DNA of 13,014 bases from an uncultured Bacilli bacterium (lineage in GTDB: Bacteria; Bacillota_I; Bacilli_A; RF39; UBA660): assembly GCA_905236935.1 (NCBI GenBank), contig CAJOQL010000080.1, positions 1 through 13,014 of the forward strand. Reading direction: 5' to 3'. Positions 247 through 10,638 of this stretch are shown in pieces (positions within the stretch are counted from its first letter, which is position 1; each line of letters begins with the position of its first letter). A program made the translations under genes and the position numbers. The notes below the pieces were generated by a model. It was given only the letters and a program-made list of their open reading frames with translations, had not been told where the DNA came from and did no database searches.

Positions 247-270
247 TTATATTATAGTAGGGTGAGTAGA

Positions 271-1644
271 ATGAAGTTAAGCAAAAGAAAAATTGACAAA
301 TTAATTGATGAATACAATAATTTTACTTATAAAGATCTAGTAAAATCTAAAGATAATTTACCTTTTAAACTTAAAAAAACTTATATTAACAAAAAATCTA
401 TTGAAATATTTATGGATTTAGTTAAAGAAAATATTAAAGAAAATTTAAGTATTTATAAAAAACATAAAATATCTTATAAAAATGAAGTATATTTATTACC
501 GGATTTCTATGCTTTAAATAATATTCCTATTCAAGTAAAAGAAAAATTTATATTTAAGTTTTTATATGATAAAAATCCTGACTTTAAGAATAAATTTGAA
601 AAAAAATATAATAAAATTCTTACTAAGCATTTAATTTTAAAATCTTTATCATTTGTAGGAACATTCCTACTATTTTTAACAGTAGGCTTATATTTAACTT
701 TAAAAGTTGTTTGTTATGGCCCATCAACTAAGGCAAGAAATATGTTTGTATCAACATTTTTAGAAACAGGAATGTTAAAATTTATTCCTAGACTTGTAAT
801 GAGTGAAAAAGAAATTAACAATATCGTAAATAAAAATAACTTATTAGAATTCAATGAAGAAATTGATACTGATAAAGTAGTTGTAAATGAAGAAACAAAA
901 ACTGATGAAATTGAAATTAAAAAGGTTTATGGTAATAATTTCTTCGGCATGATGATGATTGTCCATGACCCATCAAGAGTGAAATTAGCAACCACTTACC
1001 CATTTTCAAAATATGGGAAAGAATTAAATGAAATTGTAGAATTAAATAACGCGATAGGTGCAGTAAATGGTGGACTTTATGAATCACTAGGCAATCACGG
1101 AGGATATCCTGTTGGTGTAGTTGTATCAAATGGTCAAATTCAGTATAACGACCCAAATGGTAAAGGTTATCACTTAATTGGGTTTGATACAGACAATAAA
1201 CTAAGAATTTTGTCTTTAGTAGGATTAGACGCAAATGGTGTTACAGAATTAGTTAAAAAAGAAAAAATAAGAGATGCGGTTACATTCCAAGAAGAGTTTA
1301 GTGATGCTAATAACCATTTTGTAAAGTTAATAATAAATGGAGAAAATAGAAAAACTAATGGGCTTGGTAGTGGTGCAAACCCAAGAACTGCTATTGGTCA
1401 GCGAGCAGATGGTACAGTTTTATTCCTTGTTACTGATGGAAGAGGAATATCTGGACATTTAGGAGCTACTGCTAGTGATCTAATTGACGTTATGAGCAAA
1501 TATGGTGCAGTAAATGCAGCTAATATTGATGGCGGTTCATCATCATCTATGTTCTATAAAGGTGAATATTTAATGACATCTGTTACTTTATATTATAGTA
1601 ATTCATCTTGGCGCTTACCAGATGCATTCATAGTTACAAAGTAG
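271..1644 (+). CDS. Membrane-anchored phosphodiester glycosidase (NAGPA-domain protein)
   Basis: 457 residues from ATG 271. GGGTGAG at 260-266 places the Shine-Dalgarno site just before this ATG and makes an in-frame GTG at 262 unlikely. Residues 1-120 are a lysine-rich, probably cytosolic region that I do not recognise. Residues about 121-147 form one transmembrane helix, followed by an acidic linker. From about 219 to the end is the NAGPA (DUF2233-type) fold: NPRTAIGQ at 370-377, a DGR turn at 389-391 and NIDGGSSSSM at 418-427. Family members hydrolyse sugar-1-phosphodiester bonds; eukaryotic NAGPA uncovers mannose-6-phosphate, and bacterial relatives are linked to envelope or exopolysaccharide glycans. 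The domain is therefore expected outside the membrane; the natural substrate is unknown. It is the first of three genes, with 7 bases to the next. The domain call is firm, the substrate is not. Confidence 0.9.
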   Translation: MKLSKRKIDKLIDEYNNFTYKDLVKSKDNLPFKLKKTYINKKSIEIFMDLVKENIKENLSIYKKHKISYKNEVYLLPDFYALNNIPIQVKEKFIFKFLYDKNPDFKNKFEKKYNKILTKHLILKSLSFVGTFLLFLTVGLYLTLKVVCYGPSTKARNMFVSTFLETGMLKFIPRLVMSEKEINNIVNKNNLLEFNEEIDTDKVVVNEETKTDEIEIKKVYGNNFFGMMMIVHDPSRVKLATTYPFSKYGKELNEIVELNNAIGAVNGGLYESLGNHGGYPVGVVVSNGQIQYNDPNGKGYHLIGFDTDNKLRILSLVGLDANGVTELVKKEKIRDAVTFQEEFSDANNHFVKLIINGENRKTNGLGSGANPRTAIGQRADGTVLFLVTDGRGISGHLGATASDLIDVMSKYGAVNAANIDGGSSSSMFYKGEYLMTSVTLYYSNSSWRLPDAFIVTK

Positions 1645-1651
1645 GTGAAAT

Positions 1652-2755
1652 ATGAAAAAAATATTAAAATATAAAAATGCGTTAATTATTTTTTCTGTAT
1701 TTTTAATTTTCCTTTTATCATTTTATCTTCAAGCCTTATATAAAAGTCTTGCTAAGTTTGAGGAAAATGATGTTGATAACTATATTAATTCCGTAATAAA
1801 TAACCTAAAAGACAAAGAATACATTAATAAATACTTAAAAGATGAAAAAGTATCAAATAAATTCGAAAATAATGTTTCAAAACTTGATGCCTTTACAAAT
1901 GCTTTTAATAAAAATAACGTTTCTTACTTAAAAGTTGATAATAATGTTTATGAACTTCTTAATAATAATAATCGTATTGCAACCCTAACCCTTAAAGAAA
2001 ATAAAGAAGAATCAGTATTAGGTCTTTTAAGTTATACTCCATTAGATATTGCTAATTTATCATTTGATAAAGGAATATATAGTTATAAGATAAAAGCTAA
2101 CAGCACTTATAAAGTATATGTTAATGATATCTTATTAAGTAGTGATTTCATTAAAGAAACAAAAGAATATGAAGAACTTGATAGACCTAACATAAAAAAA
2201 TTAACTCCCAAAATTTATATTTATGAAATTGACAATTTATTAGAAGAACCTACTATTAAAATTCAACAAGCAAATAAAGAAATAATTTCTCCAGATATAA
2301 AAGATAACGAATATGAAGCAAGCAATCCCATAATATATAATAGTTATGAAGAAGCAAAAAAACATTTAAAAAATAATTTTAATCCACTAGTTATCGCTAA
2401 AAATTGGAGTTTATACTTAACTGCCGACTTAAACGGAAGAAATGGTTTTTATACTCTTCAACCAAATTTATTAAAAGGAACAGACCTTTACACTAGAGCT
2501 AGAAATTGGTCAATCAACTATGATATTAACTTTACATCTCCTCATACATTATCTGACAAACCATTTACAGATGTAAAAATGGATAATTTTAAATTTTATG
2601 GCAATGATTTCTTTACAGTAGATATAAAACTAACTAAAAATATGATTCTTTCAAATGGTGTCAATAAAACTGATGAATTAAATGAAACATTTTATTATTC
2701 TTACATAGATGGTAATTATAAATTAATTGATATGAAATCTATCGAGGAAATATAA
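1652..2755 (+). CDS. Single-pass membrane protein, unrecognised extracellular domain
   Basis: 367 residues, not recognised as a named family. AGGTGA at 1643-1648, overlapping the previous stop codon, precedes the ATG at close range. Residues about 8-30 are a single hydrophobic helix after a short lysine-rich start, and there is no lipobox cysteine, so the rest should face outward. Residues about 60-170 end in a strand-rich stretch (YKIKANSTYKVYVNDILLSS) that resembles small beta domains seen in secreted Bacillota proteins. The C-terminal part from about 228 carries an EEAKKHL helix and an AKNWSLYL segment and ends in beta strands. This pattern could be an NTF2-like fold, a weak guess. It lies between the NAGPA gene and the LRR gene with almost no spacing, so co-translation and a shared surface role are likely. 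Confidence 0.85.
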   Translation: MKKILKYKNALIIFSVFLIFLLSFYLQALYKSLAKFEENDVDNYINSVINNLKDKEYINKYLKDEKVSNKFENNVSKLDAFTNAFNKNNVSYLKVDNNVYELLNNNNRIATLTLKENKEESVLGLLSYTPLDIANLSFDKGIYSYKIKANSTYKVYVNDILLSSDFIKETKEYEELDRPNIKKLTPKIYIYEIDNLLEEPTIKIQQANKEIISPDIKDNEYEASNPIIYNSYEEAKKHLKNNFNPLVIAKNWSLYLTADLNGRNGFYTLQPNLLKGTDLYTRARNWSINYDINFTSPHTLSDKPFTDVKMDNFKFYGNDFFTVDIKLTKNMILSNGVNKTDELNETFYYSYIDGNYKLIDMKSIEEI

Positions 2756-2756
2756 T

Positions 2757-4058
2757 ATGAACAAGAAAAGTATTATTACTATTGTTATAATCCTTTTTTT
2801 ATTAACAACAAGTTTTTTTATAACAGAGCATTTAAATAAACCAAAAGAAGTCTCTATTGGAAACGCTGAATATTTAAATAACGCTAAAGAACTAGATTTA
2901 TCAAATAATAGTTTAGATAATGATAATAACTGGTTAACAAAATTTAGAGAATTTAAAAATCTTAAAAAAGTAAACTTAAAAAATCAAATTATAACTAGTG
3001 AACAAGAAAAGTATTTATTACTAAATTACCCTAATATAAAATTTAACATGGATATATATTACAAAATATATGAAGATTTATATAATGAGAATATCACTGA
3101 ATTAGATTTATCAAACATATCAGTTGATGACAAATTAATTAATTATTTAAAACCATTTAAAAATCTTCAAAAAATTGAATTTAAAAATAATAAACTCAAA
3201 TTAGAATTAATGAGTAAATTAGTAAAAGAATATCCGAATATAGATTTTAATTGGCCAATAAATTACCAAAATAAAACTATTTCTAAAGAAGATGAAAAGA
3301 TAAGCTTTATTAACAATAAAAATTTAAAAATAGCAGAAATAAAAGATTTAATTACCATATTACCTAATCTTAAAGAAATTGACTTTTCAGATTCCAACTT
3401 AACTAATGAAGAACTAGATTCATTAAGAAAAAGCTTTCCAAATATTAATATCATTTGGCGCTTACATTTAGGCAAATGGTCCCTAAAAACTAATGATGTA
3501 GCTTTCTCAGTATTAGTAGGTAAAATTGATTATGTAAGATTAACTAGTAAAGATATTGAAGTTTTAAAATACTGTACTAACTTAAAAGCATTAGACTTAG
3601 GACATCAAGCAATTGAAGACATAAGCATCATTGGAACCTATCTAAAAGATCTTCGTATATTAATCCTTGCTGATAACAAAGTAAAAGACCTTACACCATT
3701 AAAAAATTTAAAACATCTTCATTATCTTGAACTATTTGTCAATAAAATTAATGATTTTTCACCTCTAACTGAATTAAAAGAATTAGTTGACATAAATATT
3801 GGATATAATGATGCTTCCAATATTGAACCATTATTAAAACTTGGCAACATTGAAAGATTTTGGCTTGTTAATGGTGGCATTACAGAAAAAGATCGCCAAA
3901 CTTTAAAAAATGCTTATCCTAACGCAATAGTAAATACAACATGGAGTTTAAGCTCTACTGAAAAAGGATGGCGCAATCACCCAAGATATTATGCTATGAT
4001 TGATATGTTTCATAAAAAGAATTATCTTAGTGAAGAATTTTCAAAATACGATAAATAA
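2757..4058 (+). CDS. Membrane-anchored leucine-rich-repeat protein
   Basis: 433 residues, starting one base after the previous stop; GAGGA just before that stop supplies the ribosome site. A helix at residues about 6-22 anchors the protein. Residues 44-237 hold three copies of a long module with LDLSN-type strands and a closing Y/FPNI motif at 91, 159 and 227, a period of 68-69 residues. Residues 277-370 switch to classical bacterial LRRs with a 22-residue period (LKALDL, LRILIL, LHYLEL, LVDINI, IERFWL). A final partial copy of the long module (YPNAIVNTTW) leads into a GWRNHPRYYAMIDM tail, resembling the end of other Bacillota LRR proteins I recall. LRRs normally form curved protein-binding surfaces; no enzyme motif is present. 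A surface binding role is inferred. The likely terminator after this gene closes the operon. Confidence 0.88.
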   Translation: MNKKSIITIVIILFLLTTSFFITEHLNKPKEVSIGNAEYLNNAKELDLSNNSLDNDNNWLTKFREFKNLKKVNLKNQIITSEQEKYLLLNYPNIKFNMDIYYKIYEDLYNENITELDLSNISVDDKLINYLKPFKNLQKIEFKNNKLKLELMSKLVKEYPNIDFNWPINYQNKTISKEDEKISFINNKNLKIAEIKDLITILPNLKEIDFSDSNLTNEELDSLRKSFPNINIIWRLHLGKWSLKTNDVAFSVLVGKIDYVRLTSKDIEVLKYCTNLKALDLGHQAIEDISIIGTYLKDLRILILADNKVKDLTPLKNLKHLHYLELFVNKINDFSPLTELKELVDINIGYNDASNIEPLLKLGNIERFWLVNGGITEKDRQTLKNAYPNAIVNTTWSLSSTEKGWRNHPRYYAMIDMFHKKNYLSEEFSKYDK

Positions 4059-4063
4059 GACAT

Positions 4064-4098
4064 AAAAGTGTTGAGTTTATAACCAATGCTTTTTTTTT
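4064..4098 (+). terminator. Probable terminator of the NAGPA/LRR operon
   Basis: AAGTGTTG (4066-4073) pairs with CCAATGCTT (4084-4091 region) through eight base pairs, two of them G-U, around a 10-base loop. An A tract precedes it and a run of nine T residues begins at 4090. The stem is modest but sits directly after the operon's last stop codon. Confidence 0.5.
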
Positions 4099-4108
4099 CT
4101 ATTTTTTA

Positions 4109-4117
4109 TGCTATAAT
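4109..4117 (+). promoter_or_regulatory. Extended -10 promoter of the alpha/beta hydrolase gene
   Basis: TGCTATAAT (4109-4117) is a perfect TGnTATAAT element. A TTGAGT at 4071-4076 is 35 bases upstream, too far to serve as its -35 box. AGGTGG (4128-4133) and ATG 4138 follow. Confidence 0.6.
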
Positions 4118-4137
4118 ATCAACTCATAGGTGGTTTT

Positions 4138-5127
4138 ATGAATTTTTTAAAGCACATAATTTTAACATACAATATAAAAGATTTTTTAGACATATACAAA
4201 TATATACTTATAATAGTACCAATTTCTCTTATATGCTTTATAATCATCGATTTTTTTTATAAAGATAATTTAAGAATAAAAAAGAGAATAGTATATATAA
4301 CGATATTATTAATTCCATGGCTATTTATAAATATGATTATAATGATAATACCAAATGATACAAAAACTACAATAAATATAAAATATGAGGAAATTAACAA
4401 TATTCCTAAAGATTCACAAGAAAAAATTAATCATGACATATCTATAAAAGAACAAGAAAAAATTAAAAAATATTTAAATATTCCAAGTGGCTCATCATTA
4501 AATAAATATTTAACAACAAATAATAAAACTATAAATTATTATCAAATCGTTTCAAAAAATCCCACATATGATATGCCATTAATAATATATTTACATGGTG
4601 ATGGAGAAACTTATAATATAAAATCTATTCCAAATTTACCTATTTATAAATATATCTTAAATGAATACATAAATAATCCCTTCATTTTTATCGCACCACA
4701 TACTACTAAAAGGGACTGGATAAGCACTAGCGTAACTACAAATTTAAAAGAATTAATTGATTATGTAATAAACACTTACCACATTGATAAAAGTAAGGTA
4801 ATAATAATTGGTGCATCTCGTGGTTCTATGGGAGTTTGGAATATGATAAGTATTTATGGAGATTTTTTTTCTTCTGCTTGTCCAATTAGCTGGCACCCAA
4901 CTACAAATCTAAATTATAATAATTTAGTTAAAGTCCCAATTTATGCTATTTCAGGTAATTCTCAATATCCAGAAAATGAAGTTAATAAGAAGATGACTGA
5001 AGTAGTTAATAGGATAAATGAACTAGGAGGTAGTGCAATTATGAAAACTTATAACGGAGAGACACATGATACTATTGCTTCAGCTCTTTCTAGTAAAGAA
5101 ATATTTGACTATCTATTAGAGAAATAA
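4138..5127 (+). CDS. Membrane-tethered alpha/beta hydrolase (esterase-like)
   Basis: 329 residues with AGGTGG at 4128-4133 before the ATG. Two hydrophobic helices (about 21-40 and 50-71) tether it, with the two ends of this hairpin on the same side. From about 145 it is an alpha/beta hydrolase of the esterase D / PHB-depolymerase kind. LIIYLHGDGE (148-157) is the oxyanion strand, FIFIAPH (182-188) is the next strand, and IIIGASRGSMG (222-232) is the nucleophile elbow with Ser227. NGETHD (306-311) supplies His310. The usual acid position, GxxD before the last helices, reads GNSQ (273-276), so the acid may be supplied by Glu279 or Glu281 or be absent. Substrate is unknown; esters or a cell-wall acyl group are guesses. 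It has its own promoter and no obvious terminator before the next gene. Confidence 0.85.
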   Translation: MNFLKHIILTYNIKDFLDIYKYILIIVPISLICFIIIDFFYKDNLRIKKRIVYITILLIPWLFINMIIMIIPNDTKTTINIKYEEINNIPKDSQEKINHDISIKEQEKIKKYLNIPSGSSLNKYLTTNNKTINYYQIVSKNPTYDMPLIIYLHGDGETYNIKSIPNLPIYKYILNEYINNPFIFIAPHTTKRDWISTSVTTNLKELIDYVINTYHIDKSKVIIIGASRGSMGVWNMISIYGDFFSSACPISWHPTTNLNYNNLVKVPIYAISGNSQYPENEVNKKMTEVVNRINELGGSAIMKTYNGETHDTIASALSSKEIFDYLLEK

Positions 5128-7569: not shown

Positions 7570-9162
7570 ATGAAAAGAAATATCATAAGTTTAATTATTA
7601 CTTTATTTATTGGTTACATCTCATTTTATTTATTTTTGCCAGCTTTAAATATTCATAGTTTAGGTTTTTGGCTTTTTGTAATTTATTTAATTATAATTTA
7701 TAGTGCTATTGCCTTTACTAGTGCTATTGGAGAATTATTTTCAACTAATCGTATAAGACATCATAAAACTAAATTTGGTTTTAGTATGATCCTATCAATC
7801 CCAATTATATTATTTACAATTATAGTATTAGATATTATTGGTGGACCTATATTTAATGCCAAAAGTTATGCAACTCGTATCACTATTGATGAAAATAAAA
7901 CATTTACAGATAATGTAAGCTTAGTAGATTTTACTAAATTACCATTACTTGATAAAGATTCATCTCAAAAATTAGGCGACCGTGTAATGGGACAAATGAG
8001 TGAATTAGTAAGTCAATTTAACGTTTCAGATATTTATACACAAATTAATTATAATGATAAAATTGTTAGAGTTACCCCTTTAGAATATGCATCATTCATT
8101 AAATGGATAACTAATAAAAAAGAAGGCATTACAGGATATATTACTGTTGACTCTGTTACTGGAGAAGCAAATTTAACTAAATTAAATAAAGGAATGAAAT
8201 ATGTACCATCTGCTCACTTTAACGAATTACTTCAAAGAAAATTACGTTTTTCTTATCCAACTGATTGCTTTGGTAGAATATCATTTGAAATTGATAATGA
8301 AGGCAATCCTTACTGGATAGTTCCAGTTATAACTTATAAGTGGATTGGACTTCGTGCTGAAGTAACTGATTTAATTATTTTAAATCCATTTGATGGAACA
8401 AGTGAAAAAATGAAAATCTCTGAAGTACCTACTTGGGTAGATATGGCTTATTTTGCAGATCTTATCATTGAACAAGTAGATGATTGGGGAACTTATAGTG
8501 GTGGTTATATTAATAGTATTTTTGGTCAAAAAAATGTTGTAAATACCACAGATGGTTATAATTATTTAGCTATTAATGATGACATTTATCTTTATACTGG
8601 TATAACTTCAATCGTAGCTGATGAATCAAATTTAGGATTTATCTTAACTAATATGAGAACAAAAGAAACATCATTTTATAGTGTTCCAGGAGCTGAAGAA
8701 TACAGTGCTATGGCTTCTGCTGAAGGTGCTGTACAACAAATGAAATATACTTCAACTTTCCCATTACTAATAAACTTAAATAATAAACCAACATATTTAG
8801 TAAGTTTAAAAGATGCTGCTGGTTTAGTTAAAATGTATGGTTTTGTTGATGTAACTGATTATCAAAAAGTAGTAGTAACTGACTCTTCAAAAGGAATTGA
8901 AGCAGCTGCTCAAAACTATTTAGGCGATGTAAAAGTAGAAACTGATGAAAGTGCTTTAACAACAAAAAATATAACTATTAAAACAATTAAAGAAGCAACT
9001 ATTAATGGAAACTCTTATTATTACATTACTGATGAAAATGACAATAAATATAAAGTATCAATCACTTTAAGTGATGAATTACCATTCTTAAAAGCTGGAT
9101 CAAATATTAAAATTGGTTATAATACTGAAAGTAAAATAACTAATATTGTAAAAATATATTAA
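7570..9162 (+). CDS. Three-helix membrane protein with large external region, unknown family
   Basis: 530 residues; AAAGGAAG at 7557-7564 precedes the ATG. Three hydrophobic helices lie at about 5-27, 31-55 and 70-91. With positive residues (NRIRHHKTK) between helices 2 and 3, the last 435 residues should face outward. The external part includes DCFGRISFEIDNEGNPYWIV (232-251), strongly hydrophobic strands up to about 275, and SAEGAVQQ ... TFPLLINL ... PTYLVSLKDAAGLVKMY (383-423), a repeat-like beta layout somewhat like PepSY domains. A small C-terminal module (466-530) looks like a beta barrel of the OB or SH3 type. I believe related proteins exist in other Bacillota but cannot name the family. 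It is followed after 17 bases by the serpin gene, almost certainly on one mRNA, so a link to extracellular proteolysis control is possible. Confidence 0.85.
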   Translation: MKRNIISLIITLFIGYISFYLFLPALNIHSLGFWLFVIYLIIIYSAIAFTSAIGELFSTNRIRHHKTKFGFSMILSIPIILFTIIVLDIIGGPIFNAKSYATRITIDENKTFTDNVSLVDFTKLPLLDKDSSQKLGDRVMGQMSELVSQFNVSDIYTQINYNDKIVRVTPLEYASFIKWITNKKEGITGYITVDSVTGEANLTKLNKGMKYVPSAHFNELLQRKLRFSYPTDCFGRISFEIDNEGNPYWIVPVITYKWIGLRAEVTDLIILNPFDGTSEKMKISEVPTWVDMAYFADLIIEQVDDWGTYSGGYINSIFGQKNVVNTTDGYNYLAINDDIYLYTGITSIVADESNLGFILTNMRTKETSFYSVPGAEEYSAMASAEGAVQQMKYTSTFPLLINLNNKPTYLVSLKDAAGLVKMYGFVDVTDYQKVVVTDSSKGIEAAAQNYLGDVKVETDESALTTKNITIKTIKEATINGNSYYYITDENDNKYKVSITLSDELPFLKAGSNIKIGYNTESKITNIVKIY

Positions 9163-9179
9163 AAAGGTGGAAATCTAAT

Positions 9180-10403
9180 ATGAAAAAGAAAATTATAATA
9201 ATATTATTACTTATTCTTGTCTTATTAGTTTTTTTCTTTTTATATAAAAAAGGAAAAAATGATAACCAAGATAGTAATATAACTTTAACTCAAAATCTTG
9301 ATATTAATTTGCTTAAATTAGTTAACAAAAAAGAAGAAGATAACTTTCTTATAAGCCCATATTCAATAAAAATGGCTTTATCTCTTTTAAAAGAAGGTGC
9401 AAGTGGCAATACTTTAAATGAAATAAATAAAATATTAAGTAACGGTCCAAGTAAAATAAATAATCAATATATCAAAGTGGCAAATGCTTTATTTGTTAAA
9501 GAGAATTTAAAACAGTATATTGAAAAATCATATATTACTAACTTACAAACAAAATATAATTCAGAACTTTTAGTAGATAAATTTACGACTCCTGATATTA
9601 TTAATAACTGGGTAAATAAAAATACTGATGGAATGATTGAAAAAATATTAGATAAAATGGATAATGACTTTGTTCTAGGACTTGCAAATGCACTTGCTAT
9701 TGATGTTAAATGGCAAAATGAATTTGAATGCATATCTACTAAAGAAGAAGAATTTACAATGTTAAATAATAAAACTAAAAAGGCTCAAATGATGCACAAC
9801 AGTTATTCAGATAAAGATTATAAATATATTAATAGCCCTAATGCTAAAGGAATAATCTTACCATATTCAAAAGATTCTAACTTAGAATTTATTGGCTTAC
9901 TTCCAAATGATAATCTAAATTCTTATATTGCAAATTATCTAGAAGAAGATTTAACTAATCTACCTAAATTACAAAAAAGTGCTAGTAGCGATACTGTCAT
10001 AAATTTATCAATACCACGATTTACCTTTAGTTATTCATTAGACAACTTTAAAGATATTTTAACAGAATTAGGAATTAAAGATGTATTTAACAAACAAAGT
10101 GCTGATTTATCTAAAATAATTAGCAAAGAAAATCTAAATAAAATGAATAAACAAAATATTTATGTAGACGAAGCCATTCATAAAACTTACATTAATTTTA
10201 ATGAGACTGGAACTAAGGCAGCAGCAACAACATATTTTGGAATTAAAGCAGATGGACTATTAATGGGAGATAATTCAATTGATATAACCTTTAATAAACC
10301 TTTTATCGCTATAATAAGAGAAAAAGTAACTAATGAAATACTATTCCAAGGAGTAGTTAATAATCCAAATACATGGAATGGAAACACATGTACAAAATAC
10401 TAA
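9180..10403 (+). CDS. Membrane-anchored inhibitory serpin
   Basis: 407 residues; AAAAGGTGG at 9162-9170 precedes the ATG. Residues 5-22 form a hydrophobic anchor or uncleaved signal after MKKK, with no lipobox, so the serpin domain (about 38-400) lies outside the membrane. Family landmarks in order are NFLISPYSIKMALSLL (55-70), NALFVKENL (102-110), NNWVNKNTDGMIEKIL (142-157), ALAIDVKWQNEF (171-182), LSIPRF (276-281) and FNKPFIAIIREK (371-382), ending FQGVVNNP. The reactive loop begins at Glu342. ETGTKAAATT (342-351) keeps the Gly-Thr and small residues of an inhibitory hinge, so it should trap serine or cysteine proteases by loop insertion. Counting 17 residues from Glu342 puts P1 at Asp358 (GIKAD, then GLLMG). 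Serpins are uncommon in bacteria. It is the last gene of its operon and overlaps its terminator. Confidence 0.95.
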   Translation: MKKKIIIILLLILVLLVFFFLYKKGKNDNQDSNITLTQNLDINLLKLVNKKEEDNFLISPYSIKMALSLLKEGASGNTLNEINKILSNGPSKINNQYIKVANALFVKENLKQYIEKSYITNLQTKYNSELLVDKFTTPDIINNWVNKNTDGMIEKILDKMDNDFVLGLANALAIDVKWQNEFECISTKEEEFTMLNNKTKKAQMMHNSYSDKDYKYINSPNAKGIILPYSKDSNLEFIGLLPNDNLNSYIANYLEEDLTNLPKLQKSASSDTVINLSIPRFTFSYSLDNFKDILTELGIKDVFNKQSADLSKIISKENLNKMNKQNIYVDEAIHKTYINFNETGTKAAATTYFGIKADGLLMGDNSIDITFNKPFIAIIREKVTNEILFQGVVNNPNTWNGNTCTKY

Positions 10404-10458
10404 AAAACTTCATATGAATATTTACCAATAAAGTATTTATTCACTTATGAAGTTTTTT
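10402..10458 (+). terminator. Strong terminator of the serpin operon
   Basis: AAAAAACTTCATA (10402-10414) pairs with TATGAAGTTTTTT (10446-10458) over 13 base pairs. The stem continues as TGAATA (10415-10420) with TATTCA (10438-10443), with a 2-base bulge between the two helices. It starts inside the serpin stop codon. Its symmetry suggests it can work in both directions. Confidence 0.88.
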
Positions 10459-10638
10459 ACTTGCACTTCTATATTACAAAATATTTTTACATAATTGAAA
10501 TGCAAAAGCTATTAATATAAAAACTATGCACATTATAAATAATAAATTAAAAGATAAAATAATTATTTAAAAAGAGTTTAAATAACTAGTTTTATTTTTT
10601 GAAATAATCTATAATAAACTTTATAGGAGTAAAAAAAT
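10459..10638 (+). promoter_or_regulatory. Leader region of tex with a weak promoter
   Basis: This 180-base stretch holds no gene. TATAAT at 10610-10615 is the likely -10 of tex, though no good -35 box or TG extension accompanies it. TAGGAG (10624-10629) is the ribosome site, nine bases before the start. An all-A/T inverted repeat, TTATTTAAA (10563-10571) and TTTAAATAA (10577-10585), sits upstream of the promoter; chance is the simpler explanation at this base composition. Confidence 0.45.

Follow-up and report, generated by a model that had tools for sequence, protein, structure and literature searches.

The window, that is, the whole 13,014-nucleotide stretch analysed here from an uncultured Bacilli bacterium, encodes a further serpin of the known gut bacterial class whose hinge is of the inhibitory type; its bait changes fast. 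The protein is probably an inhibitor of ordinary mechanism, membrane-anchored on the outside of the cell, with a rapidly rewritten bait that would act as a shield against the proteases of other organisms. The aspartate counted at its P1 position, Asp358, would represent the current state of the bait in this lineage and not the mark of a conserved Asp-specific function.

The serpin gene, its fold and its neighbours

The features of the gene and its surroundings are collected in Table 1. The 407-aa protein carries a full-length serpin domain (PF00079, MEROPS I4; 5.2e-69) and the corresponding fold, which places it in the serpin superfamily, and its best PDB matches were tengpin and other serpins. 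The AlphaFold2 model (pLDDT 88.1) contains a helix at residues 2-24; together with the N-terminal hydrophobic stretch, this makes the surface anchor proposed in the original prediction probable. In the same model, residues 344-354 form a strand and residues 357-366 fall below a pLDDT of 50, so that the reactive loop is modelled as insertable. The AAGGTGG upstream of the start codon resembles the ribosome-binding-site consensus. Downstream, the terminator-like hairpin is AT-rich with perfect arms of 14 bases, and the RNA fold over 10396-10465 reached -20 kcal/mol (z -7.88); a G+C-based terminator scan did not flag it.

Table 1. Positions of the serpin gene, its loop elements and adjacent features in the window
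Feature	Position	Strand	Basis
530-aa membrane protein, upstream neighbour	7570..9162	+	Open reading frame; 17 bases lie between its end and the serpin ATG
Ribosome-binding-site-like AAGGTGG, 9 bases 5' of the ATG	9164..9170	+	Sequence reading
Serpin gene (407 aa; starts with ATG, stops with TAA)	9180..10403	+	Open reading frame
Predicted signal anchor at the N-terminus (residues 1-24; lacks a lipobox Cys)	9180..9251	+	Hydrophobic stretch, modelled helix 2-24
Cys184, predicted disulfide partner	9729..9731	+	Co-occurrence, alignment A1
Hinge and proximal loop P17-P5, residues 342-354, ETGTKAAATTYFG	10203..10241	+	Conservation in homologues
Bait segment P4-P8', residues 355-366, IKAD/GLLMGDNS, counted cut at the slash	10242..10277	+	Variability
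Asp358 codon GAT, counted P1	10251..10253	+	17-residue count from the hinge glutamate
Cys404 of the C-terminal tail, predicted to pair with Cys184	10389..10391	+	Co-occurrence, alignment A1
Probable intrinsic terminator, hairpin and T-run just 3' of the serpin	10401..10459	+	Inverted repeat I3

Among solved structures, the best sequence match was tengpin from Thermoanaerobacter (PDB 2pee, 2pef and 2vh4; E 3.2e-40 for 2pef), which also gave the first Foldseek matches. Tengpin is likewise bacterial and shares 28-30% identity with the window serpin; its hinge reads ELGTKAGAV, and by the same count its P4-P1' is ITAA-G, so that its P1 is Ala as against Asp in the window. Excerpts of a published serpin phylogeny place tengpin in group T, along with the gut bacterial siropins 1 and 2 of Eubacterium siraeum and the serpin of Bifidobacterium longum (PMC8233489). 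The latter gut serpins act on elastase-like proteases, and miropin of Tannerella forsythia inhibits host and bacterial proteases (PMC8201313, excerpts). Miropin, also assigned to group T, has the same fold as the window serpin (5ncw, 5nct), with 24% identity in the structural match. The siropins belong to other lineages, and their cut sites have been mapped off the counted P1 (PMC5127057, excerpts).

The window serpin has just two cysteines, Cys184 and Cys404. In alignment A1 of 120 homologues both were found in 118 rows, neither in 2 and a single one in none, and from this co-occurrence a Cys184-Cys404 disulfide tying the tail to the body is predicted; such a C-terminal tether is a predicted trait of this clade. 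A looser profile alignment of 120 homologues showed both cysteines in 117, Cys184 with a gap at 404 in one and no Cys184 in two. In the looser alignment of locus rows, whose counts include duplicate and partial rows, the 45 rows of loci L001-L040 and L044 had both in 33, Cys184 only in 8 (mostly row-end gaps), Cys404 only in 1 and neither in 3, and the 119 other locus rows had both in 6. The tengpin crystal chain ends a few residues past the aligned part, without the Cys404 tail. A possible parallel to the tether is offered by thermopin, in which an extension at the C-terminus makes contact with residues that are conserved in strands s5A and s6A (PMC6718151, excerpts).

The 530-aa gene upstream is probably co-transcribed with the serpin. 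Its product has N-terminal membrane helices and a model pLDDT of 86.6; it had no match in Pfam or NCBIfam and no relative in a PDB sequence search, and its best Foldseek matches (TM-scores 0.15-0.23) were not credible. This protein occurs in 27 of 59 relatives, and the serpin was absent from the examined flanks in 25 of those 27 loci. Positions 262-5127 of the window hold a run of extracytoplasmic-looking proteins: a phosphodiester glycosidase domain (NAGPA) protein, a 367-aa protein with no known function, a leucine-rich-repeat protein and an alpha/beta-hydrolase-like protein.

Hinge, P1 register and variation of the reactive loop

Codons 10203-10271 translate to ETGTKAAATTYFGIKADGLLMGD, and the hinge is intact (ETGTKAAATT), in agreement with the original prediction of an inhibitory-type serpin. 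Positions P17-P9 (ETGTKAAAT) conform to the ExGTxAAAA type of inhibitory hinge with small residues at P12-P9, P9 being Thr. Relative to the published motif, ExGTEAAAA (PMC8233489, excerpts), Lys replaces Glu at P13 and Thr replaces Ala at P9, a position occupied by Val or Ile in most homologues. Among the 120 homologues (the best of 987 found among 7998 candidates scored), P17, P15, P12, P11, P8 and P6 were invariant, P14 and P10 kept the same residue in 119, P13 in 117 and P5 in 114, and P16 varied.

The loops of these homologues were pooled with those of the serpins from loci L001-L111. Removal of 27 stretches without letters at both anchor columns from the 284 matched left 257; 16 more lacked the hinge pattern (leaving 241) and 34 were repeats, giving 207 unique loops, in which the alignment of distant rows is perhaps off in places. 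The contig scan with the 120-row alignment had returned 179 places, and the 80 best of these, amounting to 79 loci, were kept; a contig scan of genomes with the window protein as single query found no relative.

The numbering of the window protein happens to coincide with that of alpha-1-antitrypsin, with E342 as P17 and D358 as P1. In a canonical serpin loop, P1' is small and the even positions down to P4 face inward. Of the 207 loops, 184 had one of Ala, Gly, Ser and Thr at the counted P1' (109, 93 and 131 for the neighbouring P1, P2 and P2', respectively), and 200 had a hydrophobic residue at the counted P4, a pattern that supports P1 at residue 358 as originally counted. Our best guess for the natural scissile bond is thus at 358, with Leu360, Leu361 and Met362 as alternatives for enzymes preferring hydrophobic residues.

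A cut elsewhere in the bait, for example after one of these three residues, or cuts at several bonds as in miropin, can be entertained tentatively and would be compatible with an inhibitory shield serpin. In siropins, elastase and proteinase 3 cleaved the P3-P2 and P6-P5 bonds (PMC5127057, excerpts), and miropin has cleavage sites beyond the usual bond (PMC8201313, excerpts). Hydrophobic residues are also frequent at the counted P3' (130/207) and P4' (89/207). On the other hand, the small P1' marks the canonical register across the group, and serpin trapping reportedly depends on loop length, which argues against a displaced bond. A multi-site bait has been shown for miropin, whereas the window serpin is known from sequence and model. 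The fragment obtained with another bacterial serpin, chloropin, fits its predicted P1, Arg383 (PMC10090351, excerpts), and siropin complexes did not appear on SDS-PAGE, so that, in our reading, their cuts may be partly substrate-like.

The counted P1 of the 207 loops took 17 residue types: Asn in 49, Ser in 38, Ala in 29, Thr in 22, Gly in 20, Lys in 12, Glu and Tyr in 8 each, and nine less frequent ones that include Asp. Asn was the commonest residue there; the 120 closest homologues contribute 106 unique loops, 35 of them with Asn and one with Asp. Among all 207, Asp likewise occurred once, in the window's own loop, in line with its expected rarity. A search for IKAD-like loops with residues 331-374 alone returned 6 candidates and the window protein as sole match; this short query has low sensitivity, and other such loops may exist. 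Asn-Gly, a pair prone to deamidation, occupied P1-P1' in 16 of the 207 loops.

The aspartate had been taken as a possible sign of a target resembling those of CrmA, a cowpox virus serpin with Asp at its loop P1. CrmA is viral and intracellular and its activity is known by experiment, whereas the single, unique Asp of the window serpin belongs to a bacterial protein, probably anchored in the membrane, and stands at a position that varies freely. That Asp358 serves as P1 in trapping granzyme B, a caspase or a glutamyl- or aspartyl-specific bacterial enzyme appears unlikely to us. By the count, P1 is indeed Asp and is followed by a small residue, Gly, while P4 is Ile, in a register backed by the conserved small P1', and the 8 loops with Glu at P1 add to the acidic residues at this position. 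However, the likeness to LVAD of CrmA hangs on one residue, since KA at P3-P2 also precedes Asn at P1 in other loops (KAN-G, KAN-A), and Lys at P3, common in the group (53/207), fits poorly with caspases and granzyme B, which prefer Glu there. Asp and Glu together numbered 38 at P3, 35 at P2 and only 9 at P1 in the 207 loops, so the number of acidic residues would be very different if the cut site were slightly displaced. In addition, caspases are intracellular, as opposed to the predicted surface location of the serpin. Among the literature titles and abstract beginnings listed, there was neither a bacterial serpin with P1 Asp nor a member of this clade.

The serpin locus and the pace of bait change

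Two related loci, L001 (a contig of 4114 bases, lacking a Tex match) and L002 (with Tex downstream), keep the order radical SAM, 530-aa membrane protein, serpin. With the window sequence as reference, the dS of the serpin was 0.82 in L001 (radical SAM 1.06, 530-aa protein 0.66) and 1.20 in L002 (neighbours 1.16, 0.88 and 1.25). Its dN was 0.208 in L001, against 0.127 for radical SAM and 0.074 for the 530-aa protein, and 0.413 in L002, against 0.190, 0.152 and, for Tex, 0.088. Serpin dN was therefore 1.6 to 4.7 times that of its neighbours at similar dS, and the entire serpin, bait and body both, is fast-evolving. Bait identity to the window was 33% in L001 and 8% in L002. The bait dN/dS values of 0.60 and 1.78 come from 12 codons with dS near saturation and are thus no formal test of positive selection.

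In locus L114, the neighbours match and the 530-aa gene and Tex lie some tens of bases apart with no serpin between them; a serpin search of its genome (G007) gave no match. The serpin was present in 21 of the 116 genomes searched around G001, G001 counted. The empty site, this patchy presence and the high dN indicate that the serpin gene is an accessory, optional and quick to change, while the site itself is stable. The nearest named loci come from metagenome-assembled genomes labelled Bacilli, Bacillales or Erysipelotrichaceae and, where a site is named, from rumen, omasum or other ruminant gut; some bear RUG isolate labels, which denote rumen genomes.

Other serpin arrangements were also seen. 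Three loci (L096, L104 and L105) contain a second, larger type with frames of 540-610 aa, in which the two parts that match serpins are separated by a longer stretch and the hinge is altered (NEGIKAS, QDGIKAS and NEGIKAA, with Ile instead of Thr at P14); this type is perhaps non-inhibitory. One genome (G085) has five serpins, three of them clustered at about 1.444-1.462 Mb of contig C1 (L085, L103, L111), and in a phage collection two records included serpins, with identities of 27-30%.

Loop variability is common among serpins in general. Here, residues 356-363, directly adjoining the nearly invariant P17-P5, had the highest column entropy of all 8-residue windows in 40-404 among the 120 homologues, and in the seven closest homologues (P0002-P0008) the 12-residue window of lowest identity begins at residue 355. 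In pairs with 50-60% body identity (n=4813), mean identity was 92% in the hinge and 21% in the bait. On a tree of the 120 rows built with the loop columns left out, the counted P1 residue changed at least 51 times by parsimony, a count made without a shuffle control. The nearest rows to the window on this tree carry VYAS-S, VKNT-A and VKNT-S. The window's IKAD-GLLMGDNSIDITF resembles FKAN-GLIMEKNSIDITF of P0032, a distant row, and IKAN-G and FKAN-G loops, close to IKAD-G, sit in distant branches; the likeness of IKAD and FKAN may reflect retention, convergence or loop exchange.

Position 358 thus varies freely among homologues, an outcome that the original prediction had itself named as refuting it: besides the 17 residues found overall, the closest syntenic orthologue (L001) has Thr and the next (L002) Ala, so that the P1 Asp is not conserved even among orthologues, as a fixed target class would have it. 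The original suggestion of an Asp-specific target is not borne out here, its only support being one residue in a column with this many tree changes, and the inference of an Asp-cutting protease from Asp358 is weak.

Candidate targets and significance of the changing bait

The protease search covered six related genomes other than the window's own (G001-G005 and G007; completeness unstated, kinship unstated for G003 and G005, and G007 without the serpin). Peptidases of families C14, C11, S8 and C13 (caspase/metacaspase, clostripain, subtilisin and legumain families) had no match in any of the six, which makes a foreign protease the likelier target; it is accordingly unlikely that the bacterial metacaspase or clostripain proposed originally would come from the serpin's own bacterium, and a CrmA-like role loses two candidate families. 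A self-made target would still be conceivable, since an HtrA-like Trypsin_2 protein, the sole match among the families tried, was found in all six genomes; it was also found in 12 of 14 control genomes, showing no special link to the serpin. The pattern of small or Asn residues at P1 would fit elastase-like, subtilisin-like or Asn-cutting enzymes.

We regard an inhibitory shield serpin as the probable explanation of these observations. The N-terminal helix would hold the protein outside the cell membrane. There, a protease would cleave the exposed loop close to P1-P1' (Asp358-Gly359 by the count), whereupon the loop, now free, would insert into beta-sheet A and leave the protease covalently trapped. 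Hinge, sheet A and probably a disulfide-held tail form a chassis that would be conserved while the short bait is rapidly rewritten, a combination that makes a shield against changing foreign proteases probable. Presumable targets are digestive or neutrophil enzymes of the host and proteases of protozoa or other bacteria. That bacterial serpins can act on proteases of other organisms has precedents in the siropins (PMC5127057, excerpts) and miropin (PMC8201313, excerpts).

A joint alternative, which we judge to be a long shot, is a membrane-anchored, disulfide-tethered serpin clade of ruminant-gut Bacilli with a fixed chassis, a rapidly exchanged bait and Asn as the commonest P1 residue. In it, Asp358 would be the acid form of an Asn-P1 bait, and the target would be an enzyme that cuts at Asn or Asp, for instance a protease of the legumain or another type from rumen protozoa or from the host. 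The GAT codon of Asp358 is one base change from an Asn codon, and we know of no characterised serpin with P1 asparagine. The reading draws on the Asn-rich P1 column and on the specificity of legumain, which cuts after Asn and, at acid pH, also after Asp; in a spleen study, P1 Asp accounted for only 4 of 116 non-asparaginyl legumain cleavages (PMC10862022, excerpts). A non-inhibitory serpin with a storage, binding or structural role and an accidental loop, a function discussed for some Streptomyces serpins, is highly improbable given a hinge that is nearly invariant in 120 homologues and close to ExGTEAAAA (PMC8233489, excerpts).

A P1 residue read from a single bacterial sequence is a weak guide to the target, since counted P1 is Asp, Thr and Ala at one syntenic site in three related genomes. 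If the Asn-P1 bait reading were true, it would define a bacterial Asp/Asn-specific serpin class; the Asn-rich counted P1 column is a concrete puzzle. As the 120 closest homologues carry 106 unique loops on one chassis, or roughly a hundred baits provided by nature, this group would permit a direct test of how inhibitors are matched to local proteases in gut bacteria.
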